Part shown: positions 365 through 17,674 of the stretch, piece after piece
Layout of the letters: every line of letters begins with the position of its first letter
How positions within the stretch are numbered: the first letter of the stretch is position 1
NCBI RefSeq assembly: GCF_014925405.1
Contig: NZ_AQHJ01000015.1
Coordinates: 1 to 17,674, forward strand
Length of the DNA stretch: 17,674 bases
Direction of reading: 5' to 3'
Source of the DNA: Pseudoalteromonas ulvae UL12
GTDB lineage: Bacteria > Pseudomonadota > Gammaproteobacteria > Enterobacterales > Alteromonadaceae
Program-made: the position numbers and the translations under genes
Notes under the pieces: model-generated
What the model was told of the DNA's origin: nothing
Databases searched by the model: none
Seen by the model: only the letters and a program-made list of their open reading frames with translations

Positions 365-3300
365 AACCACTCTTCTCCTTCTGTGCTTTCCAACTCTTGC
401 TGAATCTTCACTTGTAAGCTCAATTTGCTCACCTGTGCAGCAAGTTCGTCTAAAGCAGGAGTATCAAAAACCTGCGTCACTTCTAGTTCGATATCAAATT
501 GCTTAGATACTAGGGAGGCTAGCTTAATGACTAGCAATGAGTGACCACCAAGGGCGAAAAAATTATCGAAACGGGAAACCTGCGGGACACCTAATAACTC
601 CTGCCAGATCTGCGCTAATTGACTTTCTGTGCTTCCGTGTGGTGCGACAAACTCCCCTGTAGTGGCTACCGAATGATCAGGCTTAGGTAGTGCGATTCTG
701 TCAATCTTGTCAGCAGCATTAAGTGGCATAGCCTCCAATTGCATATAAACGGCAGGAACCATATGCTCAGGTAGCTCTTGCAACATATTCTGTCTTAGCT
801 CTTGCAGATCAACTTTCTCTCCAGTGGTAGCGACAAAGTACGCTACTAGAAATGCATCTTTGTCTGTCGGTTGTTCCAATAATACAGCCACATCTTTCAA
901 GCCCGCTTGACGAGCTAGTACTGCTTCTACTTCTCCCAGCTCGATTCTAAAACCACGGATTTTTACCTGATTGTCGAACCGCCCAGAGAAATACAATCTT
1001 CCCTCTTTGTCGTAGTAACCTAGATCACCCGTACGATACAAAATAGTGTCGTCTAAATGGGCATGACCTTGCCCTGTGTAAGGGTTTGCAACAAAGCTTT
1101 TTTCCGTTTTCTCAACATCATTCCAATAGCCTAAGCCAACACCAACACCTGTCACGCAAATTTCACCTGGTACACCAACAGGTACCAATTGTTGATTGTC
1201 ATCCATAACATAAATAGCCAAGTTGGGAAGGGCTTTACCTATGGGGTATTCATCCATATCTGACGGAAATTGCTCTGATTGAATAAAATAAGTCACGTCA
1301 TCAGACGCTTCACTTGGTCCGTATCCGTTCATTATTTTTAGATGCGGATACAACTTAAGCACGTGATTAAGCAAGTTAACTGACGTAGCTTCACCTGTTG
1401 TCATTACACAAGACAAATCATTTAACTGTCGATTCTCTCTAATTAATGTTTCAGCATATTCCACTATCGCTTGCAGCATTACCGGTGCAACTTCTATCAG
1501 GTCGACCTTGCGTTCTTGTAATGTTGTAAACAATGTTTCCAGATCAAGCAGGGAGTCTAGAATGACCGTATGACCACCACATAAAATAGGCGCTAAGAAT
1601 TGCCATACTGAAATATCTGAAGAAGCGGCTGCGCTTTGTAAAATAGAACGTGGTTGTAATTTGCTATTATCAATCCAGCCAAGTACATCGAACTCTGCAT
1701 CAATGTGGTTAATACACCCAGCATGATGAAGTAACGCGCCTTTTGGCTTACCTGTGGAGCCAGATGTATACAGCATGTATGCGGGTTGCTCCGGAGAGAC
1801 CTCAATTAGGTCTAACGCTTCGGTGTCAGGAACTAGTTCAAAAGAATCCGGCATCAACACGAGCGATTTAACACTAAGTTTATTTGCTAGGTCAGCTTCT
1901 GTTAACACCAGCTTCAAAGCTGAATTCTCGATCATGTACTGGACACGCTTCTCTGGATTACGAGGGTCCAACGGCACATATATTGCGCCAATTTGCATGA
2001 TGGCTAACATTGCCGTTAAAAACTCAGGACTGCGACTCATGTATACGCCAATCAGTTCTTCTTGATTCACGCCATTTTCTAGTAGTAAATGAGCTACACA
2101 ATTAACCCTATGCTCAAGTTCTGAATATGTTAGTACACGGCCATTGTGATAAACGGCTACATTATTAGGAGTATCTGCTGCTTGCGTCTTAAACCTAGAC
2201 GGCACAGTACGCGCTAACTTGTAGTCATGAGCCTCAGGGTTAAAGTCCAACAAGATCTGTCGTTTTTCATCTTCTTGAATAAGTGCATGTTCTGCTATTG
2301 TTTTATTCGGTGTATCAAGCAATTGCTCAAGTAAATGAACAAAATGTGACATCATTCTTTCAATAGTTTCAGCCTTGAATAATGCCGCGCTGTATTCCAT
2401 GTCGAAATGAATACCATCCGGAGTTTCAATAGCGTTTAATGTCAGATCGAATTGCGTTGCAACATCTTGCTGGCTTCGTCCGGTAAATTGAACACCGTCT
2501 ACGTGCAACTCAGATATTTCATTGGTTTCCATCGCAAACATAACTTGAAATAGTGGCGAATAACTGGTGCTACGTTCCGGGTTAAGACGCTCGACTAACA
2601 TTTCAAATGGTACATCTTGATGCGCTTGCGCTGATACATTCACATCTTTTGCTTGTTGCAATAGCGTCGAAAACGTATTTTCGCCATCACAATCAAGCCT
2701 TAGCACTAATGTGTTTACAAAAAAGCCAACCATATTCTCTAATTGGGTATTGGTTCTGTTCGCAACAGGCGTCCCCAACACAATATCTTGCTGGTTGCTG
2801 TATTTAGCCAACAGCACACTAAATGCTGCGTGAAGTACCATAAATGGCGTTACGCCACATTCTTTGGCAAGGCTGTATACATTTTTAGTTTGCAAGCCGC
2901 TAATGTTAAAACGATGAACCGCACCTAAATGGCTTTGTCTGGCTGAGCGCGAGAAATCAGTTCTCAAACCATGAATAGCGGGAATACCCTGTAGCTGACT
3001 TTTCCAATACCCTAGTTGCTCATCTAAGAATGACGGTGTAAACCTTTGACGCTGCCAAAGAGCAAAGTCTGCATACTGCACATCCAATTTTGGCATGCTA
3101 AGTTCTTTGCCGTTACTATAGGCTTCATAGTAAGAGACAAAGTCTCGAATGATGATGTCTTCCGACCAGCCGTCAGATGCAATGTGATGCGTATTAAACA
3201 GCAACACACCTTTCGATTCACCGCACTTGATGAAGCTAGCTCTGATCATGAGATCTTGAGATAGATCGAAAGACAACATCATGTCTTCATTGATCAGACT

Positions 3301-6300
3301 TTCAATTTTCACTTGCTGTTCAGGCGTAGAAGCGTTTGACAAATCCTGAAAATTCACTTTAAGCGTTGGTTTTTGGCGAATGAGCTGTCTAGGTACTTGT
3401 TGTTCGACCACATAATTTGTTCGTAGAATTTCATGACGCTCAACTAATGCATTCAATGCTTTCTCAGCAGCTTCAATGTCAAAGTTTCCATCAACATCAA
3501 GCGCAATTGGCATATTGTACTCAGCACTTCCCTTACCAATTTGGTCCAAGATCCACAAACGTTCCTGCGAGAATGACAGTGGGATATCACATGATGATTC
3601 TCGTTGATGAATTGGCATATCAGCAATGTCGTTACACACTGATTGAGTCTCAATGTAGTTAGCCAATTCACCTAGTACTGGATACTCAAATACCGTTTTA
3701 ACATTCAATGACTTTTCTAGTTGCGTTTTAACTATCGACACCAATCTCATTGCGGTAAGCGAGTGACCACCTAAGTGGAAAAAGTTGTCTGCATTACCCA
3801 CACGTTCGACTTTTAGTAAATTTTGCCATATGTCTGCCAATGCTTTTTGTAGCTCACTCTCTGGCGCGACGAAATTATTTGCAACAGCGTTGAAATCAGG
3901 CACTGGTAGCGCATGGCGGTCAATTTTATCTGCGGCATTTAATGGCATGCTATCAAGCACCTGAATGTATCCAGGTATCATGTAGTCGGGCAATTGATCT
4001 GCTAACTTATTGCGCACACCCTCTTCAAACTGTTCATTATTAAAGCTTTCATGTGCAACTAAATAGGCTATTAGGCAATTTTGACCATCAGTGTTTTTGT
4101 GGACTAACACGGCGGCTTCAGATACCTCAGGTATCCCAACTAATGCTGACTCAATCTCGCCGAGCTCAATACGAAACCCTCTCACTTTCACTTGGTTGTC
4201 AATTCGACCAAGTAGTTCCAATGTGCCGTCTGGTTGCCATCGACCTAAATCGCCCGTTCGATATAGCATGTCGCCATGTCCACCTATAGCTTGATGCGGA
4301 TTAACTTTGAAACTTTCAGCAGTTTTTTCTGGATTGTTCCAGTAACCCTTTCCAACTCCCACGCCACTAACACACAACTCACCGACAACACCTACAGGCA
4401 GCAATTGCTGACGACTATCTAACACATACATAGTTAAATTAGGTAGCGGCTTACCAATAGGGATAGAGCGTGTTTGCGAATCTAGTGTCTGGTTCATTAT
4501 ATGGAAAGTAATGTCGTCCGATGCCTCGCTAGGCCCATAGCCATTCATCACTGGTATACCAGGATAGGTCTCTATCCACTGATTAAGTAATGGCACAGGA
4601 CAAGGTTCTGCGATGATCATTAGCCACTTAAGTGCTGGTAAAGCTCTACTTTTCTCAGGTAATGAAAGTAGCTTATCCAACAATAATTGAAGCACCGACG
4701 GCGCTGTTTGAATTAAATGCACGTCTTGCGACTGCAACAATTCGATATACAAGTCCAAGTCCATCGCGTCTGGTAGTACAACCGTTGTTCCACCGCTCAG
4801 CACTGGTGCCAAGAATTGCCAGACCGATACATCTGATGACGAAGCGGCTGTTTGTAAGAAGTTATGAGGCTTAAGTGCTTTGTTACTGTGTGAAAAGCCC
4901 AGTAAATCGAACTCTGCGTCGATATGATTCAGTGCACCAGCGTGGTGCACCAAGGCGCCTTTAGGTTTGCCTGTAGAACCAGACGTATAAATCATATATG
5001 CCAGATCATCTGGTGCAACTACATTTTCGAGATTTTGCTCACTAAAGTGACTTAACGAAGACCAATCACTGTCTAAGTTAAAGCGCTGTTGATTAGCGCT
5101 TACTTCCAGTTGCGCTGAAAGATCTTTCTGACTCAAAATAACTTTTGCGTCACAGTGCTCCGCCATATAACGTAAACGGTCTTTAGGGTTCGTTGGGTCA
5201 AGTGGGACATATGCTCCACCCGCTTTAAGAATTCCCAATATTGCTATCAAGAACAGCTCTGAACGTTCGGCGTGAATAGCAACAATTTGATTTGCTTCAA
5301 CACCACATTTAATCAGATACCTTGCAAGCTGATTTGCTTTTGAATTTAGTTGCGCATAAGAAAGTTGCTTATTTTGGCAAACCACTGCGACTGCTTGAGG
5401 ATTCGCACTAGCAACTTGCTCAAATCGCTTATGAACCGTATTAGCCCCGGGGTAATCAACTACAGGGCTGTTAAAGTCATTTAACAGGGTTTGAAACTGC
5501 CCTTTGGGAGCAATAGAAAAGTCTAGTATTGAGGTGTCTGGTCGAGTTATCAGTCGCGATGAGACTTCATCCACTGCCACTTCGATGTAAGCAATAATGT
5601 CCTTCGCGCATAGCTGATTATCGACATTAATTTCAATCTTAGTTCCAGCTTCAGACACATCGACACAAAACTCTAAGGGATAATTACTATATTCCTGCGC
5701 TTCTATAACGGATAAGTCTCCCCAATCTCCGTTATATAATTGAGTATCATCATATCGATAGTTAATAATGCTTGAGAACAACGGCACGCCAGCAGGTAAA
5801 CTACATGCCTGTTGTACCTCAGCAAGCGGCGTCTGCTCATGCTCAATTAGACGATGTAATTGTGCCTGTATTGACATTAAAGCCTCTGGCAAGTTTGAGT
5901 TTGCCAAATTTGCTCGCAATGGAAGCACATTGATAAAAGGCCCTATTGCATTAACCCCAAGATCCGCCGCACTCAACCTTCCAGATAATACTGAGCCGAT
6001 TACGACATCCTCTGCAAAGCTTGCCTTAGCCACAACTACTGACCATATGAGGTGGAATACAGCAGCTTCACTTACACCATATGATTCACTTATTTGTTTA
6101 AGCTGCGATATTTGCAGTTTAGTCAGGTGCTGTGATGCACTGTCTACCTTTGAGATATCTTGATTAATATCCTTTAAACCGAAAGGCGAAGTAGACTCTG
6201 TTATTCCTTGTAATGTAGCGTCAAAGATCTTCATTGCCTGCTGCTTCTTCTCTTTGTTATTAAGCAGACTATTAACTAAGTTTCTATATTGCGAAGGTGC

Positions 6301-9300
6301 TGGTAACTCAGTTGTTGGCGATTTCATCAATGCTAGGATTTCTTTTAACTGGATACCAATTGAGACCCTGTCTGTTGTCATGTGATGTTGTTGCATTAAC
6401 ACATAAACAACACCATCTTGCGGATTAACAATATGCGCAAGTTTGATAAGCGGAGCTTGATCTAATGGAAATACCTGTTTTGCTATGCTACGCAGTAAAT
6501 CTAGGTTTTGCTCAAGCGGTTGCTCTTGCTTAAAACTTAACTCGATTGACTTAATATGAACTTCTTTTAGCACAACTTGCAGTGGCACTTCTGCCACGCC
6601 TTCAATCACCGCGCTCCGTAATATTTCATGACGTGAGATAACGTTATTTAGCGCCGTATTGAACGACTCAAATGCACTACTATTTTTGAATCTCAAAATA
6701 ATTGGCAGTGCATAGGGATCATGTGTGGGATTTAACTGGTGGTGATAGAACATACCTTCTTGAACAGGCGTTAAGGCGTGTATATGTTCAATGTTGTTCT
6801 CACCACCTTTGACCCGTTCTGCAATTGCCATGCGCTGTGAGTCGCACAACTGAACAGCTTCTGTTGCCTCTTGCTTTTCTGAGAGGGAATCAATATTTAA
6901 CATTAAGGCTAGCTTTGCTAAATTCTCAGCTTTAAAAACAGCCATGGTCGGCAACTCAATACCGTGCTCTTTTAACATGGAGAACATAGGTAAAATTAAG
7001 AGTGAATGCCCGCCTAGTGCAAAAAAGTTGTCATTTCGGTCAATCTGCTCTTTGCCTAGTATTTGCTGCCAAATATTTGCTAGTAATGTTTCAACTTCTC
7101 CTTGAGGAGCTTCAAAACTAGTTTCAGCTGATACTTCAAATACTGGAGCGGGTAGCGCATTAATATTGACTTTACCGTTGACGGTTAGCGGTACCTGATT
7201 AATCTGAGTGACTACTGCTGGCACCATGTAATCGGGTAATGACTTGCCTAAGGCAGCTTTTAAATTTGGTACATCGATGAGTGAACTTGCGACAACATAC
7301 GCCACAAGCAGAACTTGATCATTCACTTTATGTGTTGTCACAATGGCTTCTTGAATTTCGGGCAGTTGCGCTAAACGCGACTGAACTTCGCCCAATTCAA
7401 TTCGAAAACCTCGAATTTTTACCTGACTATCGTTTCTGCCTATATATTGCAGATCTCCATTTGGTAGTACTTTAACCAGATCTCCGGTTCGATACAGCAC
7501 ATCACCTTCAGAAGAGTATGGATTTCTAACAAATTTTTCCTCAGTCAGCTCAATCTGACCTAAGTAGCCCCGAGCAACACATGCACCACCAATATATAGC
7601 TCACCGACAGTACCATTGGGCACACACTTTTGTTCAGTATCCAAAACGTAAAGCTGTGTATGAATATTGGCTTTTCCAATAGGTATTGACCCTTCAACGA
7701 CTGGCATAGACGTCATTCGATAACCAGACGCAGTCACCGTTGCTTCTGTAGGACCATAGGTATTAAATAAGACTGGTGCGTTGGGCTGTGAGAACCATTT
7801 CTCAACCTGAGGCAGCTGCACTGCTTCACCACCAATCACCATTAGCCTAAGTGATGACGGATAACCTGTATCTATGCCAGCATTAGTTAATTGATGCCAA
7901 TAGGCGGTCGGAAGACTTGCAACAGCGATATCATTGTTCCGGCAGAACTGCCAGAAATAGACGGGATTGCTTACACACTCTTCATCGCGCATGACTAATG
8001 TTGCGCCGTTAGATAAAGCACCAAAAATTTCTTCTACAGAAATATCGAAGTTAAATGTAGAAAACTGTAATACGCGATCAGAGTGTGTCAGTTCATACTG
8101 TTTAGTTATATTGTCAACAAAGTGACTCAGTTGACTATGTTCAACCATAACGCCTTTTGGCAACCCAGTTGTTCCTGAGGTGTACATTACATAGGCTAGT
8201 TGATTAGCTGCAGGCTCTTGAGGTTCAAACATAGTTGTTGAATCCTGTACTAACTCCGATATTTCGTCTAAGCATATGATCGTGCCACTACATAACGTTT
8301 CTATCTGCTCTTTTAAACGAGACAAAGTCAGAATGACTGCAGGCTTAGCATCATTGAGTATGTGTTCTTTACGTTCGATTGGATATTCAGGATCAACAGG
8401 CAAATAAGCAGCACCAGCCTTTAACACTGACATTATACTCAATGGCATATCTGCGGTTCTCGGCAAATGAAGTGCAACCAGAGATTCACTATCAATACAG
8501 TAAGGCTTCAATACTTGTGCTAGCTGTGAGGATTTGTGATCCAGCTCTTTGTAAGACAATTCCGTTTCGCCATCCACAATTGCAGGGTGCTCAGGAAATT
8601 CATTCACTGCTTGTTTAAAGCGACTTACTACATCAACAGCGCGTGTTTTTTCAGGTGCACACGGGGGTGAAGGTTGCAACTGCGCTTTGTCTATTAATTC
8701 TAGGCTATTAACCGAAGAGTCTGTTTCTTCAACAAAACTCGACACCAAGTTAAGTGTCGCTTCTAGGATATTGACTGCTTCGTCTTTGCTAAAATATGCA
8801 TGATTGTAATCAAGCTGAAATTGCACAGGTTGCTGGTCACCGTATTCACAAATAGTGAATTTAACCGGAATGGCTTCACGCCCGTGACTAAGATATTGAG
8901 TTTCAGCAGTTACACCATGTTCACTAAAATCAAAGTCTATTTGTTGATAGTTAAAGTAAACACTAAATAAATTGTCAACACCTTCTTGTCTTAGGTTCAG
9001 ATCATTATAAATATTGTTTGCAGAGTAATCCCTAAACCTAAAGTTCCTTTTGATTCGAGAGGCTGTGGCTGCAATAAATGATGAGACACTTTGCTCTTGA
9101 TTATTGTCGATCAATACCGGAAGCATCGACATATACGAGCCAACTACACTGCGTTGTTTTTCAGCCGTTCGGTTATGCAATGGCGTACCTACTACTAGCC
9201 CATCAACACCATAAATACGGAAAAAATAAGTAGACAAAGCTGATATGAAAGCAGGAAGAACACCGAGCTTTTTGTTGCTCATAGCCTCAACAAGTGACTT

Positions 9301-9993
9301 GAAATCAGCTGCTGGCATTTCATGAATAAGCTTTGAACTTTCGTCACTTTGCTCTAGCCGTTTATTGAATGGCGAACCTGGAAAATTAGCGAAATGTTCC
9401 ATCCAATGTTTCTTTGCACGTTCTTTTTTCGCTTCAGTTTGTTTTTGCGTAGTGACATCAATGTAGTCAAGAAATGTATGATCAGCATCTACAACTTCAT
9501 TCACCCCATCATTGGCCAATTTGGCGAAAATATCCCTTATCCAATTAGCATATCCCCAGCCGTCTACTATGAGATGATGAGTAATGAAAAATAGCCAAAA
9601 CCTATCTTCAGCGAGCTTGACAATACCCGTTCTAAACAAGATTTCATTTTTGATATCGAAGGGCTTAAGAAACTGCTCCGCTACCCATTTGCGTGCTTGC
9701 TCTTCTGGCTTTGCATCATCGGAAAAGTCCACTCGATTAAACTGATGTTTTTCATTACTTAAGACCAAGTAGGGTTCGCCCTGATTTTCGGCGACACGGA
9801 GTTTAAGCGCGGTGTTTTGCATAACGCTCTGCTCCATAGCCTTTTCCAAAGCGCTTTCGGATACAGATTGTTTAATGTCGACGTAACCTCCAATGTTATA
9901 CAAAGGAGACGACGTATTCTTAAGTTGACCAAAATAGAAGTCCCTCTGTTGAGGTAACAAAGGAAAGTATGTTTCGTTAATACCACTTAGCAT
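361..9993 (-). CDS. Three-module nonribosomal peptide synthetase (C-A-PCP)x3
   Basis: 3210 residues. Domain order and key residues: C1 about 10-430 with HHLIVDG at 139-145; A1 about 450-945 with YTSGTTGLPKG near 605 and A10 Lys941; PCP1 with LGGHSL, phosphopantetheine Ser997; C2 about 1065-1490 with a changed motif HHMTTDR at 1203-1209; A2 about 1516-2025 with YTSGSTGKPKG near 1665 and Lys2023; PCP2 Ser2078; C3 about 2132-2560 with HHIASDG at 2269-2275; A3 about 2595-3100 with YTSGSTGKPKG near 2738 and Lys3096; PCP3 Ser3152. There is no epimerase or thioesterase domain. The acidic tail ending EGEEWL may dock to the TubC-type domain of the next subunit. Pocket residues aligned by eye to GrsA: A1 DIESVGTVTK, A2 DVWQMIGDDK, A3 DIWEMTGDDK. 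A3 is close to the recalled Dab code DIWELTADDK. A1 resembles codes for basic residues. A2 is unassigned. C1 at the very N-terminus could be a lipid-starter C domain or could accept from an upstream subunit; the sequence does not decide. A2 and A3 are close paralogues, A1 is of another clade. The ATG at 9993 has only a weak ribosome site. Confidence 0.97.
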   Translation of the reverse strand: MLSGINETYFPLLPQQRDFYFGQLKNTSSPLYNIGGYVDIKQSVSESALEKAMEQSVMQNTALKLRVAENQGEPYLVLSNEKHQFNRVDFSDDAKPEEQARKWVAEQFLKPFDIKNEILFRTGIVKLAEDRFWLFFITHHLIVDGWGYANWIRDIFAKLANDGVNEVVDADHTFLDYIDVTTQKQTEAKKERAKKHWMEHFANFPGSPFNKRLEQSDESSKLIHEMPAADFKSLVEAMSNKKLGVLPAFISALSTYFFRIYGVDGLVVGTPLHNRTAEKQRSVVGSYMSMLPVLIDNNQEQSVSSFIAATASRIKRNFRFRDYSANNIYNDLNLRQEGVDNLFSVYFNYQQIDFDFSEHGVTAETQYLSHGREAIPVKFTICEYGDQQPVQFQLDYNHAYFSKDEAVNILEATLNLVSSFVEETDSSVNSLELIDKAQLQPSPPCAPEKTRAVDVVSRFKQAVNEFPEHPAIVDGETELSYKELDHKSSQLAQVLKPYCIDSESLVALHLPRTADMPLSIMSVLKAGAAYLPVDPEYPIERKEHILNDAKPAVILTLSRLKEQIETLCSGTIICLDEISELVQDSTTMFEPQEPAANQLAYVMYTSGTTGLPKGVMVEHSQLSHFVDNITKQYELTHSDRVLQFSTFNFDISVEEIFGALSNGATLVMRDEECVSNPVYFWQFCRNNDIAVASLPTAYWHQLTNAGIDTGYPSSLRLMVIGGEAVQLPQVEKWFSQPNAPVLFNTYGPTEATVTASGYRMTSMPVVEGSIPIGKANIHTQLYVLDTEQKCVPNGTVGELYIGGACVARGYLGQIELTEEKFVRNPYSSEGDVLYRTGDLVKVLPNGDLQYIGRNDSQVKIRGFRIELGEVQSRLAQLPEIQEAIVTTHKVNDQVLLVAYVVASSLIDVPNLKAALGKSLPDYMVPAVVTQINQVPLTVNGKVNINALPAPVFEVSAETSFEAPQGEVETLLANIWQQILGKEQIDRNDNFFALGGHSLLILPMFSMLKEHGIELPTMAVFKAENLAKLALMLNIDSLSEKQEATEAVQLCDSQRMAIAERVKGGENNIEHIHALTPVQEGMFYHHQLNPTHDPYALPIILRFKNSSAFESFNTALNNVISRHEILRSAVIEGVAEVPLQVVLKEVHIKSIELSFKQEQPLEQNLDLLRSIAKQVFPLDQAPLIKLAHIVNPQDGVVYVLMQQHHMTTDRVSIGIQLKEILALMKSPTTELPAPSQYRNLVNSLLNNKEKKQQAMKIFDATLQGITESTSPFGLKDINQDISKVDSASQHLTKLQISQLKQISESYGVSEAAVFHLIWSVVVAKASFAEDVVIGSVLSGRLSAADLGVNAIGPFINVLPLRANLANSNLPEALMSIQAQLHRLIEHEQTPLAEVQQACSLPAGVPLFSSIINYRYDDTQLYNGDWGDLSVIEAQEYSNYPLEFCVDVSEAGTKIEINVDNQLCAKDIIAYIEVAVDEVSSRLITRPDTSILDFSIAPKGQFQTLLNDFNSPVVDYPGANTVHKRFEQVASANPQAVAVVCQNKQLSYAQLNSKANQLARYLIKCGVEANQIVAIHAERSELFLIAILGILKAGGAYVPLDPTNPKDRLRYMAEHCDAKVILSQKDLSAQLEVSANQQRFNLDSDWSSLSHFSEQNLENVVAPDDLAYMIYTSGSTGKPKGALVHHAGALNHIDAEFDLLGFSHSNKALKPHNFLQTAASSSDVSVWQFLAPVLSGGTTVVLPDAMDLDLYIELLQSQDVHLIQTAPSVLQLLLDKLLSLPEKSRALPALKWLMIIAEPCPVPLLNQWIETYPGIPVMNGYGPSEASDDITFHIMNQTLDSQTRSIPIGKPLPNLTMYVLDSRQQLLPVGVVGELCVSGVGVGKGYWNNPEKTAESFKVNPHQAIGGHGDMLYRTGDLGRWQPDGTLELLGRIDNQVKVRGFRIELGEIESALVGIPEVSEAAVLVHKNTDGQNCLIAYLVAHESFNNEQFEEGVRNKLADQLPDYMIPGYIQVLDSMPLNAADKIDRHALPVPDFNAVANNFVAPESELQKALADIWQNLLKVERVGNADNFFHLGGHSLTAMRLVSIVKTQLEKSLNVKTVFEYPVLGELANYIETQSVCNDIADMPIHQRESSCDIPLSFSQERLWILDQIGKGSAEYNMPIALDVDGNFDIEAAEKALNALVERHEILRTNYVVEQQVPRQLIRQKPTLKVNFQDLSNASTPEQQVKIESLINEDMMLSFDLSQDLMIRASFIKCGESKGVLLFNTHHIASDGWSEDIIIRDFVSYYEAYSNGKELSMPKLDVQYADFALWQRQRFTPSFLDEQLGYWKSQLQGIPAIHGLRTDFSRSARQSHLGAVHRFNISGLQTKNVYSLAKECGVTPFMVLHAAFSVLLAKYSNQQDIVLGTPVANRTNTQLENMVGFFVNTLVLRLDCDGENTFSTLLQQAKDVNVSAQAHQDVPFEMLVERLNPERSTSYSPLFQVMFAMETNEISELHVDGVQFTGRSQQDVATQFDLTLNAIETPDGIHFDMEYSAALFKAETIERMMSHFVHLLEQLLDTPNKTIAEHALIQEDEKRQILLDFNPEAHDYKLARTVPSRFKTQAADTPNNVAVYHNGRVLTYSELEHRVNCVAHLLLENGVNQEELIGVYMSRSPEFLTAMLAIMQIGAIYVPLDPRNPEKRVQYMIENSALKLVLTEADLANKLSVKSLVLMPDSFELVPDTEALDLIEVSPEQPAYMLYTSGSTGKPKGALLHHAGCINHIDAEFDVLGWIDNSKLQPRSILQSAAASSDISVWQFLAPILCGGHTVILDSLLDLETLFTTLQERKVDLIEVAPVMLQAIVEYAETLIRENRQLNDLSCVMTTGEATSVNLLNHVLKLYPHLKIMNGYGPSEASDDVTYFIQSEQFPSDMDEYPIGKALPNLAIYVMDDNQQLVPVGVPGEICVTGVGVGLGYWNDVEKTEKSFVANPYTGQGHAHLDDTILYRTGDLGYYDKEGRLYFSGRFDNQVKIRGFRIELGEVEAVLARQAGLKDVAVLLEQPTDKDAFLVAYFVATTGEKVDLQELRQNMLQELPEHMVPAVYMQLEAMPLNAADKIDRIALPKPDHSVATTGEFVAPHGSTESQLAQIWQELLGVPQVSRFDNFFALGGHSLLVIKLASLVSKQFDIELEVTQVFDTPALDELAAQVSKLSLQVKIQQELESTEGEEWL
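375..380 (-). promoter_or_regulatory. Ribosome binding site of NRPS subunit 2
   Basis: AAGGAG in the minus sense lies inside the last codons of the upstream NRPS gene, 10 bases before the ATG at 364. It supports that start and translational coupling through the ATGA overlap. Confidence 0.5.
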
Positions 9994-10023
9994 TGCAATT
10001 TATCCGTGCTCATCTTTAATAAG

Positions 10024-10054
10024 TCGACGCAAAACATTTGCCATTCGACGCAAA
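10024..10054 (-). repeat. 10-base direct repeat upstream of the NRPS start (possible operator)
   Basis: TCGACGCAAA occurs exactly at 10024-10033 and 10045-10054, 21 bases apart, or two helical turns. Between them GCAAAACATTTGC forms a short inverted repeat. This lies 31-61 bases upstream of the NRPS start codon. It could be a regulator binding site or part of the leader; no function is demonstrated. Confidence 0.4.
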
Positions 10055-10068
10055 TTTAGAATTTATTC

Positions 10069-10096
10069 AAAAAAGTTTTGGGGTTAATATCCCCAA
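10069..10096 (-). terminator. Terminator-like hairpin (attenuator?) between oxygenase and NRPS genes
   Basis: In the minus sense, TTGGGG, a 7-base loop, CCCCAA, then AAC and a run of six T (10074-10069). The stem is a perfect 6 bp with four G-C pairs. It sits 32 bases after the oxygenase stop and about 75 bases before the NRPS start, so it would end or attenuate transcription entering the NRPS gene. The stem is short and the T-run is not immediately adjacent, so efficiency may be partial. Confidence 0.45.
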
Positions 10097-10127
10097 GTAA
10101 AGAATTGTCTGGCTTGCGCCGTTCGAT

Positions 10128-10994
10128 TTAAGACACATAGTTCAAATAAGGCCTGTATTTTTCAAAGAACCGAGTTCTATTCATTCCTAAAACAAGTCCT
10201 TTGAATGTAAGCCAGTTGAAGTAGATGTTCTCTCTAGGCATATTTTCTTTAATGCCTAAAAAACTGCGTGCTACACTCTGTTTAGTATGAAAATCTAAAT
10301 TGAAAGAGATGCACTCATCTAAGCTTCTTACGTGATGTAGCATTCCTGCTGGCATGAAAAACATATCACCAGCACCAACTTCCACTTGCGCCACATTCAC
10401 GCCTGCATTTTTTAGTCGCTGCTGTGTTTCGCTATCTTCTGGATCAATGTCGAACCATCGCCACCCTTTGCGCTCACATAACTTTCGGTCGCTCCATGAA
10501 ATCAACGTAAAGCGCTTTCTTCCTTTAATTTGGAAGAAAATGTTATTGGTTCGAAGCGTATCGAAATGCAAAGGCGTAACTGCACCTTTTGGCGAAACAA
10601 AAAACTGGGCAAACTTCCACCAGTCATTTCGATAAAAAGTTGGTAGCAGCTCACTAGGAAAATTTACAATGTCTTGAGTTAGCTCTTTCATCTCTAGAAA
10701 CAAAGGAACATCATGACAATAAGGCATATCTGAAACAGCAGTATTATTACGCTTGCTAAGTCCCAGGCGATTAGCAAACTCTTTCATAGTCGCTTGCTCT
10801 ATTTCAATAGCGCCGGGCCTAAAATACTTGATCGAAACTCTAACGTTCGGGCATGAATTTTCGAAGTAATTAACACTCCATTTACCTACAGCAGGCCAGT
10901 TGCTAATCGCTCCTTTGTACAACTGCGCTTTAGTTTGACAGTGCTTAGTAAACATATTTAAGTCAAAGCACTGTTCAACAAGAACTTTAGACAT
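10128..10994 (-). CDS. JmjC/cupin-8 type Fe(II)/2-oxoglutarate-dependent oxygenase, probable tailoring hydroxylase
   Basis: 288 residues from ATG 10994; a GTG at 11006 would add four residues but has no ribosome site, whereas GAAGG precedes the ATG by 5 bases. The double-stranded beta-helix signature is visible: TPLHFD supplies the first iron His143 and Asp145, IKGRKRF about 15 residues later holds the Lys that binds 2-oxoglutarate in FIH-like proteins, and MPAGMLHHVRSL supplies the distal iron His220. Enzymes of this cupin-8 group hydroxylate protein or amino-acid side chains. Lying between the Dab aminotransferase and the NRPS, it most likely hydroxylates a monomer, either free or bound to a carrier domain. 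The start overlaps the aminotransferase stop by 8 bases, so the two are probably co-translated. There is no signal peptide or membrane segment. Substrate and position are unknown. Confidence 0.85.
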   Translation of the reverse strand: MSKVLVEQCFDLNMFTKHCQTKAQLYKGAISNWPAVGKWSVNYFENSCPNVRVSIKYFRPGAIEIEQATMKEFANRLGLSKRNNTAVSDMPYCHDVPLFLEMKELTQDIVNFPSELLPTFYRNDWWKFAQFFVSPKGAVTPLHFDTLRTNNIFFQIKGRKRFTLISWSDRKLCERKGWRWFDIDPEDSETQQRLKNAGVNVAQVEVGAGDMFFMPAGMLHHVRSLDECISFNLDFHTKQSVARSFLGIKENMPRENIYFNWLTFKGLVLGMNRTRFFEKYRPYLNYVS

Positions 10995-12291
10995 AACGCC
11001 CTTCACCCGCGTCAGCAGTTTGGCTAGTATTCACCGTTTGATTGGAGAGTTTTGCAAATGCAGCATCGATTACAGCAAACCCCTGATTGAGCGTTGTATA
11101 ATCAATGGTGAGCGCTGGCATTAACTTGAATACTTCGTCATGAGGGCCACATCGCTCAACGATAACGCCATTTGCGAAGCAATCTTTTACGAGAAACTCG
11201 GAATAAGCTTCGTCTCGCATTTCAATACCCTGCATTAAGCCAATACCCTTTGTTTTGATACATAGAGCTGGGTACTTCGCAACGATTTGATTGAGATATT
11301 GGTTAATGTAAAGTGCTTTATCCGCCACTTCTAATTCGAACTTTTCATCCGACCAAAAGTGTTTAACCATTGCTGTAGAAGCTACAAACGCAAGGTTGTT
11401 TCCACGGAAGGTTCCGTTGTCCTCCGCTGGACGCCATACGTCAAGCGCACTGTCAATCAGTAATAGTGCCATCGGTAGTCCCATGCCACCGATAGACTTC
11501 GACAAACAAACCAAATCAGGCTTAATACCAGCTCTCTCAAAACTAAAGAAGCTGCCACTACGACCACAACCTGTTTGAATATCGTCGATAATGAGTAGAA
11601 TCCCAAGTTCAGAAGTCAGCAATCGCAAGTCCTGCAACCACTCTACAGACGCTACATTCAACCCGCCTTCTGCCTGAACAGTTTCAAGAATAATAGCGGC
11701 TGGAAGGTCAATTCCAGAACTTGGGTCAGTAAGTAGTTTGCGATAGTAATCAATACTATTGAACTCACTTCCGGCGTAACCTTCAAACGGAAAGCGTGTC
11801 ACATTTGAGTAACTTTGGCCTTGTCTGTGACTGTTACTACCAGTAAGGCTTAATGAAACACCAGTCATTCCATGGAAAGCATTTGTAAAACATACAACGT
11901 TCTCACGCTTTGTATATTTTCGGGCAAGCTTGACAGCAGACTCTACAACACTTGTCCCTGTCGGACTGGTAAACTGTATTTTATATTCAAGGTTGCGTGG
12001 CTTCAAAATGCATGAGCTAAACGCTTCGATAAACTCAAGCTTAGATTGTGAATGCAAATCCAAACTCATCGCGATGCCATCTTTCTCTAAATATGACATC
12101 ACACTATTTTTGATTACATCATTGTTGTGACCATAATTTAGTGCGCCCGCACCAGACAAAAAATCAACAAACTTATTGCCTTTATTGTCATAAATAAGGC
12201 TTCCTTTGCTCTGAGTAAAAACCGTCGGAAAACTCCTACAATACGAACGAGCGGAAGACTCTACCTCTTCAAACAACTTTTCTTTATTCAC
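10987..12291 (-). CDS. ectB: Diaminobutyrate--2-oxoglutarate aminotransferase (EctB-type, class III PLP enzyme)
   Basis: 434 residues from GTG 12291. A TTG at 12300 is also in frame (437 residues), but AAGG touches that codon and lies 9 bases before the GTG, so I prefer the GTG. The family makes L-2,4-diaminobutyrate from L-aspartate-4-semialdehyde and glutamate. EctB-like landmarks: RSYCRSFPTVF near the N-terminus, GAGALNYGHNN, the phosphate loop TSPTGTSVVESA, TNAFHGMTG, the pyridine-N Asp236 in IIDDIQTGCGRSG, and the Schiff-base Lys265 in LSKSIGG. Length fits the family (about 420-430). No ectA or ectC is adjacent; the following genes are an oxygenase and an NRPS with a Dab-like pocket. The product is therefore probably used as a peptide building block, as with PvdH in pyoverdine synthesis. 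A different but related 4-aminotransferase substrate cannot be excluded. It is probably the first gene of the operon. Confidence 0.9.
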   Translation of the reverse strand: MNKEKLFEEVESSARSYCRSFPTVFTQSKGSLIYDNKGNKFVDFLSGAGALNYGHNNDVIKNSVMSYLEKDGIAMSLDLHSQSKLEFIEAFSSCILKPRNLEYKIQFTSPTGTSVVESAVKLARKYTKRENVVCFTNAFHGMTGVSLSLTGSNSHRQGQSYSNVTRFPFEGYAGSEFNSIDYYRKLLTDPSSGIDLPAAIILETVQAEGGLNVASVEWLQDLRLLTSELGILLIIDDIQTGCGRSGSFFSFERAGIKPDLVCLSKSIGGMGLPMALLLIDSALDVWRPAEDNGTFRGNNLAFVASTAMVKHFWSDEKFELEVADKALYINQYLNQIVAKYPALCIKTKGIGLMQGIEMRDEAYSEFLVKDCFANGVIVERCGPHDEVFKLMPALTIDYTTLNQGFAVIDAAFAKLSNQTVNTSQTADAGEGRYV

Positions 12292-12300
12292 TTGATTCAA

Positions 12301-12984: not shown

Positions 12985-13068
12985 CGTATTTTAAGAAATT
13001 AACTCAGCGTATTTTGCCTTTAGGCTTCAAATATGATCGTATACTCTCTTTTTGAGTAATGCAGCATT

Positions 13069-14054
13069 ATGAGCCTTACCGCTTTGATTAAACATTTTGA
13101 ATCAATAAAAGATCCTCGCCAGCAAATTAAAGTTATTTATTCCTTACACGACGTTTTGTTTCTCACCGTAACAGCTATCATTGCTGGTTGTGAAGGCTGG
13201 GAAGATATTGAAGACTTTGCCCACTGCAAGCTTGAGTGACTGCGGAAGTATGCCTCTTTTGAACACGGCATTCCCGTCCATGACACTATTGCACGTCTTG
13301 CCAGTCGCGTTAATCCAGATGCACTTTATAAGTGTTTTGTAGAATGGATGAAAAAAACCAAACTCTCAGTGACAACCAAGTAATTGCTATTGATGGAAAA
13401 ATTCTGAGACGCTCTTATGACCCATCAGACAGGAAGTCGGCTATCCATATGGTCAGTGCCTTCGCATCGCAAAATGGCGTTGTGATGGAAAACTGAAAAC
13501 AGATGCGAAATCCAATGAGATCACTGCGATCCCCGAGTTATTGGATTTACTTGAATTGAAAGGCCATTTAGTCACATTAGATGCAATGGGATGCCAGACC
13601 AAAATAGCCAGAAGGAACATTCAGCCGCATACAGTTATCTGGAGCAACAACGTGGTCGCACCGAATATCGTAAGTATGAAGTTATTCAAGTTGACCCACT
13701 CCAGTTTACTGAAGAATGGTTAAAATTAACGACCATAGGAAGAGCTATTTACTACTGGGTAGAAAATGGAAGCTTATAGACACCAGTGATTACATCAGCT
13801 CAGCACAATTATCAGCAGAGGAGCTAGCTAAGCTTATGCGTAGCCATTGAGAATCAATTGCACTGGGTTCTTGATGTATCATTCAAAGAGGAGAGGATAA
13901 CTGCCCAATAAACCGAGGTCATGCAGCTGAAAACTTCAGTACGTTCAGGTATGTAGGACTGAATCAATTAAAAAGAGAGAGTAGCTTAAAGGCCAGCATA
14001 CGACGAAAACAACGCCGCGCTGCGATGGACACTGAATATTTAGATAAGGATTAG
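13069..14054 (+). pseudogene. ISAs1-family DDE transposase, multiply disrupted
   Basis: Translation in pieces follows an ISAs1 transposase from end to end: MSLTALIKHFESIKDPRQ, DVLFLTVTAIIAGCEGWEDI, GIPVHDTIARLASRVNP, VIAIDGKILRRSY (first catalytic Asp), [35 protein letters not shown] (second Asp), [43 protein letters not shown], and the tail RRAAMDTEYLDKD before TAG. Damage: TGA at 13237-13239 where Trp is expected; a frameshift near 13370 leading to TAA; another near 13490; a jump from GCQTKIA to a late segment near 13600 that removes central residues; and TGA where SHWGIENQ is expected near 13848. Intact members have about 370 residues. No functional product is possible. Confidence 0.9.
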
Positions 14055-14074
14055 GGTTTAACTGTTAACAAAGT

Positions 14075-14092
14075 GTTCACGCTCTCGCCCTG
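14075..14092 (-). repeat. Right terminal inverted repeat of the ISAs1 remnant
   Basis: Read inwards on the minus strand it is CAGGGCGAGAGCGTGAAC, the partner of the left end at 12968. It lies 20 bases beyond the transposase stop, a normal position for this family. Confidence 0.6.
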
Positions 14093-14452
14093 TGGGTGGT
14101 ATTAGAAAAAAGTCGTTCAAAATGATTTTGATAACATTGAATACCTGTCAATTTTAATATAGATATGACCACTTAAAATAATCTCTAAGATTAATAAATA
14201 AGGTTAATATGGTTAAAAATAATAGGTATAAGGTTAAGGTAATATTTTGTTTATTTAACTACTTGATAAATAGGTGAATAGCTATAAAACTTAGATCAGA
14301 TTTACCCGAGGTTCAGATCATACTTACAAGGCAATCAGATCAGGATCACCCTATATAAATTGATTTTGCATTAATAATATCAACATCTTATGCACATTTT
14401 TATGTTTTATTTAGTCGGGCAGATCAGATCTTAATGATCTGAAAGTTTGTTT

Positions 14453-14461
14453 TTATCCACA
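14453..14461 (+). promoter_or_regulatory. DnaA box
   Basis: TTATCCACA, a perfect match to the consensus DnaA box, between weak iterons at the left of the origin. Confidence 0.75.
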
Positions 14462-14555
14462 ATGTAGATTTGTGATGTTTAAATACTGAGCATTAATATC
14501 GTCAGGATCATATTCTTCCGATTTGGAGATCGTAGTAACCCGACTTGTCGATGAT

Positions 14556-14564
14556 TTATACACA
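14556..14564 (+). promoter_or_regulatory. DnaA box (relaxed consensus)
   Basis: TTATACACA fits TTWTNCACA. It lies about 100 bases from the perfect box in the same orientation, 47 bases before the first duplicated iteron module. Confidence 0.55.
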
Positions 14565-14610
14565 AGGAAAAAGCTCTAATTTGTTCATATCATCAGTGAA
14601 TTCAAACACC

Positions 14611-14888
14611 AGATCAGAATTACCCGATTAAAACAGTCTTCGGGATGTGTTTTGATTAATCGTTAGCCAGAGAGAGCAAAATTACCCGAGTATCAGGATT
14701 TCAAATCAAAATTACCCGAGTTAAAAGTCCAAATTACGGATTTACTGGTCCCCACTTTTAGTTTTGTACTTAAAAAGGCTGTTACAAATCAAAATTACCC
14801 GAGTTCAGCTGGGTGAACTCTATGATACAAATTAAAATTCAATGAAATAGCTCTTAAAAAAGGAATTATAAGCGGGTAAATCTGATCT
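14611..14888 (+). repeat. Iteron module A (278 bases), duplicated
   Basis: It opens with a GATC-bearing iteron (AGATCAGAATTACCCGATT), then iterons without GATC at +62, +92 and +175, and closes with an inverted GATC iteron (GCGGGTAAATCTGATCT at 14872-14888). It aligns along its length with module B at 14972-15248, including non-iteron stretches such as the flank reading CGGGATGT. Confidence 0.85.
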
Positions 14889-14971
14889 ATCACAATAAAT
14901 AGACTCATTTTTTGCTTATTACAATTCACATAAAAAATATAAATGTTTGTTTTTATTATTATAAATTTTTA

Positions 14972-15248
14972 AGATCAGAATTACCCGATTAAAACAGCCT
15001 TCGGGATGTATTTTTATTAATTGCTAGCCAGAGAGCGCAAAATTACCCGAGTATCAGGCCTTCAAATCAAAATTACCCGAGTTAAAAGTAAATATTGCTG
15101 ATTTATTGGCCTTTATTATAGTTTTGCACCCGAAAATTAGGCTCTAAATCAAAATTACCCGAGTTTATTTGAGGGGCATCCACTAAAACCTGCAAATATT
15201 CAGTGAAATGGGCCAAAAAACTTATTTATAAGCGGGTAAATCTGATCT
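14972..15248 (+). repeat. Iteron module B (277 bases), second copy
   Basis: Same order and spacing as module A: iterons at 14972, +62, +92, +174, then the inverted iteron at 15232-15248. The offset between copies is 360-361 bases. The iterons are nearly identical between copies while some spacers have diverged, which suggests selection on the binding sites. A partial third beginning lies at 15335 (AGATCAGAATTACCCGATTT). Confidence 0.85.
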
Positions 15249-15551
15249 GGAGGAGTAAACTCAATACGTCTGATTAGTTTTACAATTATCACAGTACTAT
15301 TCAAGATGTTGTTATTAATGGATTATCTCACTTCAGATCAGAATTACCCGATTTAATATATTTACTATCCTTTTAAATGTTTTTCATTGAAAAATTGAGC
15401 GTATTCTAATTAATATCCGACTTAAATTGCCCTTCTATAATGTTTCCAGATCAGATTTACCCGACTTTAGGGCGATTGAAAGCCTTGCCTCCTTAAATAT
15501 GAGATCGTATTTTTCCGACTTAAATGTGATGTGAATTGCTAAAGATCAATA

Positions 15552-15563
15552 TTAACCGGTTAA
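15552..15563. promoter_or_regulatory. 12-base palindrome before the initiator gene (possible Rep operator)
   Basis: TTAACCGGTTAA is a perfect palindrome whose halves resemble the iteron core TTACCCG. Inverted iteron halves upstream of rep are the classical binding site of autoregulating initiator dimers, for example in plasmid F repE. A role here is inferred from position only. Confidence 0.4.
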
Positions 15564-15614
15564 AATTTTTTTAAGATCATGATTACCCGAATAAAAGCAG
15601 CTATTTTGAGATCT

Positions 15615-15640
15615 GCGTAGGATTATCGCACCTTCTACGC
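15615..15640. promoter_or_regulatory. Inverted repeat in the initiator leader
   Basis: GCGTAG (15615-15620) and CTACGC (15635-15640) form a perfect 6-bp inverted repeat with a 14-base centre. TATTAT follows at 15641, a possible -10 element. It could be an operator or a leader hairpin for the downstream gene. Confidence 0.3.
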
Positions 15641-15681
15641 TATTATTTAGTGATTCAAAAACAATAAAAACACGACTAAAA

Positions 15682-16812
15682 GTGAACAATAAACTTTCAA
15701 TAAGTAATTTGCCTGACTCTCTTAAATCTGAAGTCTCTGGCATTGAGGATGCTCGAAATATCGAGCAGCTAAATTTGTTTGTAGATAATACAGCCACTGA
15801 ATTAAAGGTTGGGAATAGCATATCAAATAGCTTCAACGCTTATGATTTGTGGTCAAGATTTGTCAGGAATAAGAAAAAACAAGTCAGTATCAGTAAAAGC
15901 CCAAATAAGATTATAGTTGAAAGAATTATCTCTGAAAAAATAGAAGGCGTCACTTACACTGGCCAACTAGGCATTTCTCCAGCTATTTTGCGTGGAGAAA
16001 AGGAAGATTTACTTGCATGGCCATCAGATAGAGAAGAAAAGGTTGAGCGAGCCCTAATAAGACTAGCGAGCCAAGGAAAAATAGCCCGGATTTCTGGAAA
16101 AATGGGTGACAACTATGCTGTTTATTTTACCTTTTCTGAGCTCATTAACGAGTTAAAATCAGTTAACCAATCTTTGAATCATAAAGATCTACGAGACTCG
16201 CTTTTGATATTGAAGGGCGCGGAGCTAACACTTAGCTATGAAGCTCACAATGAAGAAGGCCTGATAGAACAAAATCAATCCAAAATGAACTTCCTCAGTG
16301 CAATTCACTTCTCGACGGCTAAAGGCCGTTCGAACGTAAGGTGTGTTGCAGTATTAAATGAGTTGATGTCTCAGCAAATCGACTCTGTTGAATATAAGGG
16401 ATATTATTTTAATAGAACCCAATCATTCAAACGCTCGTTATCAATCTGGCTTTCATTTAGGTTGTACAGGATGTTTCGATACGCCAGCCCAACCCATAGC
16501 CACCATTTTAGACTCATTAAAACTATGATTAAGTTTGGCTCCTTGGATAACGAAAGTAACGCTGCTGCAAAGCTGGTGGCTCTTAGAAGGGATATGACAT
16601 TAACAATGAAAGATTTGGAAGAGGCTGAAATCTTAAAGTCATACAAGATTGAAAGTATTAAAGATGACGCTGGAGTAATTGTTGATTATACATATACCTT
16701 ATTTCCTTCAGATAAATTTTGTAATGAAATTTTAGAGTTAAATAAACACCAGAAAAGGATCGTGGCCAAATCTGAAAAACAAATGAATGCATCCCTACAG
16801 CAAAATTTATGA
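15682..16812 (+). CDS. Plasmid-type replication initiator protein (Rep), iteron-binding
   Basis: 376 residues from GTG 15682. No ribosome site is visible and the frame stays open back to 15610 without an ATG, so the start is uncertain. I do not recognise a close named relative. The assignment rests on context: iterons and DnaA boxes directly upstream, more repeats downstream, and typical initiator size. Visible features: a Lys/Arg/Ser-rich stretch near 68-80 (VRNKKKQVSISKS); a central segment with AWPSDREEKVERALIRLAS that could belong to a winged helix; a very basic and aromatic helix region around 250-280 (FKRSLSIWLSFRLYRMFRYA) that reminds me of the DNA-binding part of Rep_3/RctB-like initiators; and a charged C-terminus. 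It would act in the cytoplasm at the adjacent origin. It is probably autoregulated through the palindrome at 15552. Confidence 0.75.
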   Translation: MNNKLSISNLPDSLKSEVSGIEDARNIEQLNLFVDNTATELKVGNSISNSFNAYDLWSRFVRNKKKQVSISKSPNKIIVERIISEKIEGVTYTGQLGISPAILRGEKEDLLAWPSDREEKVERALIRLASQGKIARISGKMGDNYAVYFTFSELINELKSVNQSLNHKDLRDSLLILKGAELTLSYEAHNEEGLIEQNQSKMNFLSAIHFSTAKGRSNVRCVAVLNELMSQQIDSVEYKGYYFNRTQSFKRSLSIWLSFRLYRMFRYASPTHSHHFRLIKTMIKFGSLDNESNAAAKLVALRRDMTLTMKDLEEAEILKSYKIESIKDDAGVIVDYTYTLFPSDKFCNEILELNKHQKRIVAKSEKQMNASLQQNL

Positions 16813-16836: not shown

Positions 16837-16845
16837 TGTGGATAA
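16837..16845 (-). promoter_or_regulatory. DnaA box downstream of the initiator gene
   Basis: TGTGGATAA on the plus strand is the exact complement of TTATCCACA. It lies 25 bases after the rep stop and just before the second repeat family. Confidence 0.7.
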
Positions 16846-16869
16846 TACGTTTTAATAATGCCAGATTGT

Positions 16870-17152
16870 GATCATATTAGTCCCTAATCCTGTTTTTTAT
16901 GGAGAATAATAGAACCTAAATATGATCAAAAATTGTGTAAATCGAAGTTAATCGTCATAACTTGTAAATAAATACTACCAAAATCAGTTTTTTAACAATC
17001 AAATTGTGAATATCTACCCTCGAAATTGTTAATAACAATAAGGATAAAAAAACAATAATGCCAAATATGGATCTTTATTAGTGCCAAAACCTGATCGTTT
17101 ATAGATCTAAAATTTGATCTTATTAGTGCCTAATAGTGATCGGTTTAGTACC
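16870..17152 (+). repeat. Second GATC repeat family downstream of rep
   Basis: Degenerate repeats of the form GATCnTTTAnTAGTnCCAAA begin at 17070, 17093, 17116 and 17138, a spacing of 22-23 bases, with an extra GATC at 17104, half a period away. Another copy starts at 16870 (GATCATATTAGTCCC) and a possible inverted copy lies at 16910-16927. Both 16870 and 17070 are preceded by AATAATGCCA. The sequence differs from the ACCCGA iterons upstream of rep, so it may be a second class of initiator or regulator site. This is otherwise a non-coding AT-rich stretch. Confidence 0.65.
17025..17039. repeat. 15-base A/T-rich palindrome
   Basis: ATTGTTAATAACAAT is a perfect palindrome about a central A, 31 bases before the 22-base repeats. 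Function unknown. Confidence 0.3.
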
Positions 17153-17264
17153 AAATTATGTTTTAAATCTAGGGTTTAAGCAATGATATCAGTTGCTTAT
17201 GGTGTTTCCCCTTTACCCATTTATTCCATTATTCTATCCCTATATTATTCCCTTCCCTAACCAT

Positions 17265-17357: not shown

Positions 17358-17674
17358 CAGGGCGGGATCGAAGTTTAAATTGACTCATGTTGGTGTTTTG
17401 TAATCTGATTGTGCATCGCAATTTTAAGGCCGCTACAATGAGGGTTATCACGCATTTAGACTGGATTAACTCTCATCGTGAACAAGCTCAAAAGCCACAC
17501 ATTGCGATTGATGGTAAAGTACTTCGAGGCTGCTGGAAAGGCGATGTGTACAACGCGCTCAATGTGGTCAGTGCATTTGATGTTGATAACGGCCTAGCCT
17601 TGTATCAACAAACTGCAAAGAATAAAGGCGATTTTATCATCCAAGTTAAAGCGAACCAACGCAATTTACACAAT
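17358..17674 (+). mobile_element. Second ISAs1-like remnant, left end, continues past the window
   Basis: It begins at CAGGGCGGGATCGAAG, which resembles the ends of the first remnant. It carries a truncated transposase of a different ISAs1 subgroup (IDGKVLRG and NALNVVSAFDVDNGLALYQQ, against IDGKILRR and AIHMVSAFA in the first). The right end is outside the window. Confidence 0.7.
17387..17674 (+). pseudogene. ISAs1-family transposase fragment lacking N-terminus and second catalytic Asp
   Basis: The frame is open from ATG 17387 to the window edge (96 codons). From WINSHREQAQKPHIAIDGKV onward it matches the middle of an ISAs1-type transposase, with the first catalytic Asp in IAIDGK. The usual first 90-100 residues are missing. 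After LYQQTAKNKG it jumps in frame to DFIIQVKANQRNLHN, omitting about 40 residues that in the family include the LDALHCQ segment with the second Asp. The IS end lies only 29 bases before the ATG, so the N-terminal loss is an internal deletion. Confidence 0.75.

Follow-up and report, generated by a model that had tools for sequence, protein, structure and literature searches.

The stretch of DNA analysed here (the window, 17,674 nucleotides from Pseudoalteromonas ulvae UL12) carries two similar blocks of iterons upstream of a replication initiator gene, which raises the question of whether these blocks are the replication origin or sites that act on it. A preliminary description took the origin to be built from the two blocks, as possibly two origins or as an origin plus a handcuffing or control site. 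We consider, with a probability of about 0.7, that the window holds a plasmid or plasmid-like replication region with an initiator of the chromid RepA family, and that the two blocks, modules A and B, are a duplicated auxiliary block that titrates or handcuffs Rep. The anatomy of the region, its duplication, the family-wide core geometry and the lack of consensus DnaA boxes in the modules can be read directly from the sequences, and the features are listed in Table 1.

Table 1 Coordinates of the replication region and neighbouring features in the window.
Feature	Position	Strand	Details
AT-rich element, candidate unwinding element (AAGGTTAATATGGTTAA...AGGTATAAGGTTAAGG)	14186-14250	+	Recognised by WAGGT motif and AT content
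Core iterons 1-3	14293-14357	+	Starts 14293, 14315, 14337; 22-bp pitch; each with GATC
DnaA box 1, TTATGCACA	14388-14396	+	Offset +95
Core iteron 4	14412-14431	-	Inverted; GATC at +128/+133
DnaA box 2, TTATCCACA	14453-14461	+	Offset +160
Core iterons 5 and 6	14505-14546	+	Starts 14505, 14527; 22 bp apart; weaker tails
DnaA box 3, TTATACACA	14556-14564	+	Offset +263
Module A	14611-14888	+	Iterons 14611, 14673, 14703, 14786 (+) and 14888-14872 inverted (-); middle three without GATC
AT-rich inter-module spacer	14889-14971	none	Up to 88% AT; weakly like 15249-15334 (z 2.2)
Module B	14972-15248	+	Iterons 14972, 15034, 15064, 15146 (+) and 15248-15232 inverted (-); middle three without GATC
Rep-proximal iterons	15335-15593	+	Starts 15335, 15448, 15502, 15543, 15574
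rep	15682-16812	+	376 aa; GTG start codon; assigned by homology to the initiators of the Pseudoalteromonas chromid RepA family
Second 22-23-bp array	16845-17163	-	GATC heads 17141, 17119, 17096, 17073, 16873; 16895 decayed; tail TTTGGCACTAATA; DnaA box 16845

Modules A and B measure 278 and 277 bases, and their iterons lie at offsets of 0/62/92/175/261 and 0/62/92/174/260, respectively. This agreement to 1 bp bears out the earlier claim that iteron order, orientation and spacing are the same in both. In 14101-15681 the iteron tail TTACCCGA occurs 12 times, whereas 1000 dinucleotide shuffles gave 0.04 copies on average and never more than 2. Divergence along the two copies was non-uniform, with 84 of 85 bases identical in the iterons and 144 of 201 alignment columns in the spacers (Fisher p = 3.6e-9). 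The picture of conserved iterons among drifting spacers therefore stood for the iterons, but it needed correction for the spacers: those on the left, among the first three iterons, had drifted less (51/58 identical) than the two right-hand ones (93/143, p = 9e-4), indicating that drift is regional as well as iteron-sparing.

The step from A to B is 361 bp, and an iteron of the same class comes next at 15335 (+363), so the duplicated unit may be a 361-bp tandem step. A complete third module 3' of B was not supported, since what follows this iteron resembles the rest of a module weakly at best (z = 2.0 and 3.1). The regions flanking A and B showed weak mutual likeness (z = 2.2-2.5). A duplication of this kind could have arisen by chance and neutrally, through slippage or unequal recombination, with any Rep site conserved and dosage without effect. 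A simple simulation put the probability that spacing changes by a net 1 bp or less at 0.36, 0.17, 0.06, 0.018 and 0.003 when the indel/substitution ratio was set to 0.03, 0.05, 0.08, 0.12 and 0.2, respectively. Preserved spacing, which taken alone is modest evidence, is thus not rare when indels are few, and this suits a neutral accident as the tandem step does. Nevertheless, we regard neutrality as quite improbable, since the iterons remained fixed while the spacers drifted, and even the GATC-less iteron heads kept 17 of 18 bases, compared with the 144/201 of the spacers (p = 0.048).

The iterons beyond the modules had been omitted from the preliminary description. Across 14293-15593 there are 21 iterons, six in an upstream core and 15 auxiliary ones, ten of which sit within A and B and five between B and rep. 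The last two of these, 15543 and 15574, are 31 bp apart, the latter lying 89-108 bp 5' of rep, and the rep-proximal iterons are possible candidates for autoregulatory sites. Promoter-like sites in 13800-15760 were no more frequent than in shuffled sequence (5 observed, 8.1 in shuffles), and no promoter was assigned to rep. Terminator-like sites in the same interval numbered 4, compared with 0.9 in shuffles, and two of these overlap at core iteron 4. No RNA of a known family matched the window at the Rfam gathering score.

The core origin likely lies upstream of A and B, at about 14186-14565. Its six iterons are arranged at 0/+22/+44/+128/+212/+234 and interleaved with DnaA boxes at +95/+160/+263, and the AT content of 60-bp windows reaches 0.80-0.82 at 14160-14249. 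Thus the repeated sites 5' of rep, the DnaA boxes and the AT-rich element of an iteron-controlled theta replicon are all present. The three-iteron signature never arose in 3000 dinucleotide shuffles of the region, and it occurred at two places in the strain's own 4.74-Mb genome, the window and the chromid origin (control, 0). The modules were rejected as a core origin or as twin origins because they hold no consensus DnaA box and no triple of iterons at 22 bp. Hence, the proposal that the origin is built from the modules is not supported, given that the family geometry lies upstream of them, as does every one of the region's three consensus DnaA boxes. On the same grounds, A and B are very unlikely to be two alternative origins that open at 14889-14971, even though an 88% AT window lies between them, flanked by an inverted iteron to the left and a direct iteron to the right; the core pattern fits a single place in the whole window, 14293.

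Rep had no match above the family cut-off among curated families. Its homologues are annotated as 'replication protein A', and 59 proteins, itself included, were recovered at E <= 0.001 among 3287 candidates. It is about 75% identical to a protein from a Rheinheimera MAG, 50-60% identical to Rep of Pseudoalteromonas plasmids and about 48% identical to that of chromid-sized Pseudoalteromonas records. A Rep match was present in 107 of the 196 genomes searched around the strain's own, all 107 in its genus. Outside the genus, matches of at most 30% identity were found in 2 of 394 order genomes and 11 of 395 family genomes. Single-sequence Rep scans of genome contigs and viral contigs gave nothing, while alignment scans gave 84 relatives in genome contigs (80 kept) and 1 in viral contigs. 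A second rep copy in the genome of UL12, 50% identical, is located on a 0.86-Mb contig (G000:C34) that we take to be the strain's chromid. The fold predicted for Rep was nearest to domains 2-3 of RctB and then to RepE and Pi, although RctB was missed when the Rep sequence was searched against solved structures. Rep is accordingly predicted to have a winged-helix fold of the RepE/Pi/RctB type, the kind of initiator that belongs to an iteron-controlled theta replicon.

We defined the family core geometry by comparison as 0/22/45/128/202-213/224-235, to which the window conforms. It was found at 70 of the 73 rep loci scanned, a set that is almost entirely chromid-type and includes a MAG locus, L085. 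Each of the 70 has an iteron at every one of the six places, with offsets of 0, 22, 44-45, 127-138, 201-222 and 223-244. The three misses were L056, which has a run of N, and the plasmid loci L048 and L064, in which the core is on the other strand. The same geometry was also seen at L003, L007, L008, L034, L035, L039, L040, L041, L043, L109 and L044, at three further loci of chromid type (L036-L038) and on the chromid of UL12 itself. In total, 12 distinct plasmid-type loci share it, with the window included and same or near-same plasmids (L003/L033, L008/L043, L007/L109, L006/L041, L004/L039) counted once; Rep relatives at 69-75% identity stood outside this origin comparison. In 79 of 80 loci, the WAGGT motif lies 40-90 bp 5' of the first core iteron. 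DnaA boxes are the less constant part of the core. By the consensus used, all three were present in 7 of the 70 chromid-type loci, two in 49 and one in 14, with positions near +254 in 69, near +83-107 in 55 and near +160 in 9, and the strain's own chromid has one. The core triple was absent at 8/8 distant Rep loci (22-30% identity; L122, L124, L132-L137), of which L134 and L135 begin at rep, so that their upstream side fell outside the scan.

The plasmid-type loci L044, L048 and L064 have their core on the other strand, at a distance of about 2.5-2.65 kb upstream of rep. In L044 two ORFs read as parA and parB lie in between, indicating that core and rep are separable units. The origin-region DNA gave zero matches in plasmid records, and 14200-15690 matched one of 108 genus genomes besides its own (G008), over 38 bp at 92% identity at the AT-rich element. 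No description of this origin geometry was found in the Pseudoalteromonas and secondary-replicon literature searched, a body of mainly open-access text to which subscription papers mostly did not belong.

In contrast to the core, the stretch between core and rep varies. It spans 489-622 bp with 3-6 auxiliary iterons at the 70 chromid-type loci, and 1058-1455 bp with 9-15 iterons at the eight scanned plasmid-type loci that have rep beside the origin, the window (1389 bp, 15 iterons) among them. L044, L048 and L064 have 3-5 auxiliary iterons adjoining the core, and no iteron array was found in the 1500 bp before their rep. The layout differs as well, with ten or eleven iterons at a 41-44 bp pitch in L007, L034 and L040, steps of about 100 bp in L043 and two irregular copies in the window. 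We read A and B as probably one block, present twice, of an auxiliary array of the inc type between core and rep. The combination of a fixed core and a free auxiliary array is more readily explained by dose-type control than by a second origin. The earlier suggestion of an origin plus a handcuffing or control site survives as a reading, but with A and B jointly as the control site. The notion that the exact module geometry is an essential structure is weakened, because it is the core geometry that is fixed family-wide, whereas that of auxiliary arrays is variable.

The same array could instead consist of helper iterons of a working origin, at which Rep loads cooperatively and without which the core fails to open. 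Helper iterons can be required for initiation too, and we counted this against a brake function. In favour of a helper role, A and B share iteron and strand with the core and are continuous with it, and their iterons are almost unchanged from A to B. However, chromid-type loci suffice with their shorter stretch and 3-6 auxiliary iterons, and the auxiliary layout varies among replicons while the core layout is constant, so we hold a helper role to be unlikely.

The consensus iteron consists of an AGATC-type head and a replicon-specific tail, while the three middle iterons of A and of B have the heads AAATC, AGAGC or AGCGC. All six GATC-less iterons of the window are in A and B, and 9 of its 15 auxiliary iterons have GATC. 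Over 15 loci, GATC was present in 89/89 core and 99/119 auxiliary iterons. RGATC at the first three positions had served to recognise core loci, so the later core sites alone provide a fair test, and these gave 45/45 against 99/119 (p = 0.002). At the 70 chromid-type loci, whose relatedness makes p values overstate the case, GATC was kept in 210/211 core sites beyond the triple and 213/255 auxiliary sites. Among the three sites nearest rep in these loci, 202/210 had GATC and 8/210 did not, while the auxiliary site fourth from rep was without it in 30 of 39, via several different heads, which suggests repeated selected loss. Both dam and seqA are present in the host genome. The core thus keeps GATC and auxiliary iterons lose it more often family-wide, so the GATC-less sites of A and B may be methylation-blind and, by analogy with Vibrio ori2, may serve as brake sites. 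A broader proposal for chromids and sister plasmids is a two-class iteron logic, in which the GATC core would read Dam methylation, the GATC-less auxiliary iterons would form a permanent cell-cycle brake, and the brake of the window would have been doubled by copying a whole block. We offer this proposal tentatively, and it is rather doubtful.

If A and B are a titrating and handcuffing block, initiation would start at the six core iterons that carry GATC, where Rep monomers would load together with DnaA and unwind the AT-rich element. Rep molecules on A and B would pair with core iterons in cis or in trans and would also titrate Rep, and the pairing and titration would stop initiation once the copies have doubled. 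Duplication of the block would have strengthened this brake. The six GATC-less iterons would bind Rep in any state of Dam methylation, and the core sites would be silent when hemimethylated. The family-wide core geometry, the modules free of consensus DnaA boxes, the auxiliary iterons beside the core in L044, L048 and L064, the sizes of the auxiliary arrays, the GATC split, dam and seqA, the predicted fold and the replication of two chromids by repA and ori2 support this explanation. It is weakened by the auxiliary iterons that mostly keep GATC, by the inconstant DnaA boxes and by the AT-rich stretch between the modules.

Iteron tails differed between replicons, with TTACCCGA in the window, TTTACTAAC in chromid-type loci and ACACGTTATT, CCTMTATGTT or ACACCATTT/ACACTATTT in plasmids. 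Plasmid and chromid tails differ within the cell of UL12, and they differ also in P1-9, M14-00201, 303, NCIMB 1944, CIP111854, S2607 and IPB1, the seven named strains in which a plasmid origin could be read alongside a chromid-type locus. An eighth strain, MMG009, has both reps, but its plasmid contig begins at rep. This difference would keep the two replicons compatible.

A second array is located downstream of rep, with offsets from 17119 of 0, 23, 46, 224 and 246 and a box at 274. It resembles the family core, with the +128 iteron and the other boxes missing. At up to 2 mismatches, GGCACTAAT occurs in 7 copies, 6 of them in this array, against 0.81 with a maximum of 5 in 2000 single-base shuffles. 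Among 108 genus genomes, the stricter second-array pattern occurred in the strain's own and no other. At 13 other loci, the 1500 bp downstream of rep contained no comparable GATC triple. The array is perhaps a relic or a second origin for another Rep. Downstream of rep in L003/L033, TTAGTAAAA, the reverse complement of part of the chromid-type tail, occurs in 4 copies within 1500 bp. Elsewhere in the window, the minus strand of 361-12300 encodes a large NRPS-like protein (3210 aa, by reading), a cupin-like protein and an EctB-like diaminobutyrate aminotransferase, likely a biosynthetic cluster that shares the contig with the replication region. Transposase-like remains, read as ISAs1 type, lie at 13060-13780 to the left of the origin and at 17430-17674 at the right contig end, which is perhaps why the contig stops there.

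The analysis adds an origin map with a fixed core, a variable auxiliary array and a replicon-specific iteron tail, together with an RctB-like predicted initiator fold and sister plasmids whose tail differs from that of the chromid in the same cell. With this map, the copy control, compatibility and possible methylation switch of Pseudoalteromonas chromids become directly testable. Among known systems, P1 incA and F incC are control arrays of additional iterons next to an iteron origin, which bind the initiator and reduce copy number through titration and handcuffing; they are on the far side of rep and fairly regular. The window likewise has extra iterons beside an iteron origin, but its array lies between origin and rep and contains a duplicated irregular block. 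The plasmids pTML1 (NC_015708), NZ_CP032092 and NZ_CP027525 (origin read from L003, a contig of nearly the same size) have a Rep 50-60% identical, the same core geometry and long auxiliary arrays, with tails CCTCTATG or ACACGTTATT and array layouts other than that of the window.

In Vibrio cholerae ori2, according to the accessible text of PMC6090056, the 12-mers are regularly spaced and contain GATC, and RctB binds them in a methylation-dependent manner, whereas the inhibitory 39-mers are unrelated to them in sequence, have no GATC and are bound by RctB regardless of methylation. Rep is nearest to RctB in predicted fold, without a sequence match. The GATC-less sites of A and B are instead variants of the same iteron as the core; their parallel to the 39-mers is put forward as a hypothesis, and a two-class logic would parallel 12-mers and 39-mers, but from one iteron by GATC loss.

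For Pseudoalteromonas chromids, the accessible parts of PMC7858055 report that repA and ori2 drive replication in P. spongiae and P. tunicata, and state that significant repA homologues were found neither on plasmids nor in other genera; a later paper, as far as its accessible text goes, describes relatives in Rheinheimera, Shewanella, Catenovulum and Aeromonas and argues for a plasmid ancestor (PMC8496264). Chromid repA lies beside tus and parA2B2, and no such ORF was noticed on reading the 29 ORFs of at least 60 aa in the 17.7-kb contig. The window also differs from the chromid ori2 in its tail (TTACCCGA, not TTTACTAAC), in its core-to-rep distance (1389 against 489-622 bp) and in its auxiliary iterons (15 against 3-6). 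With the chromid ori2/RepA it has in common a homologous initiator (about 48-50% identity), the six-iteron core geometry, an AT-rich element and DnaA boxes.
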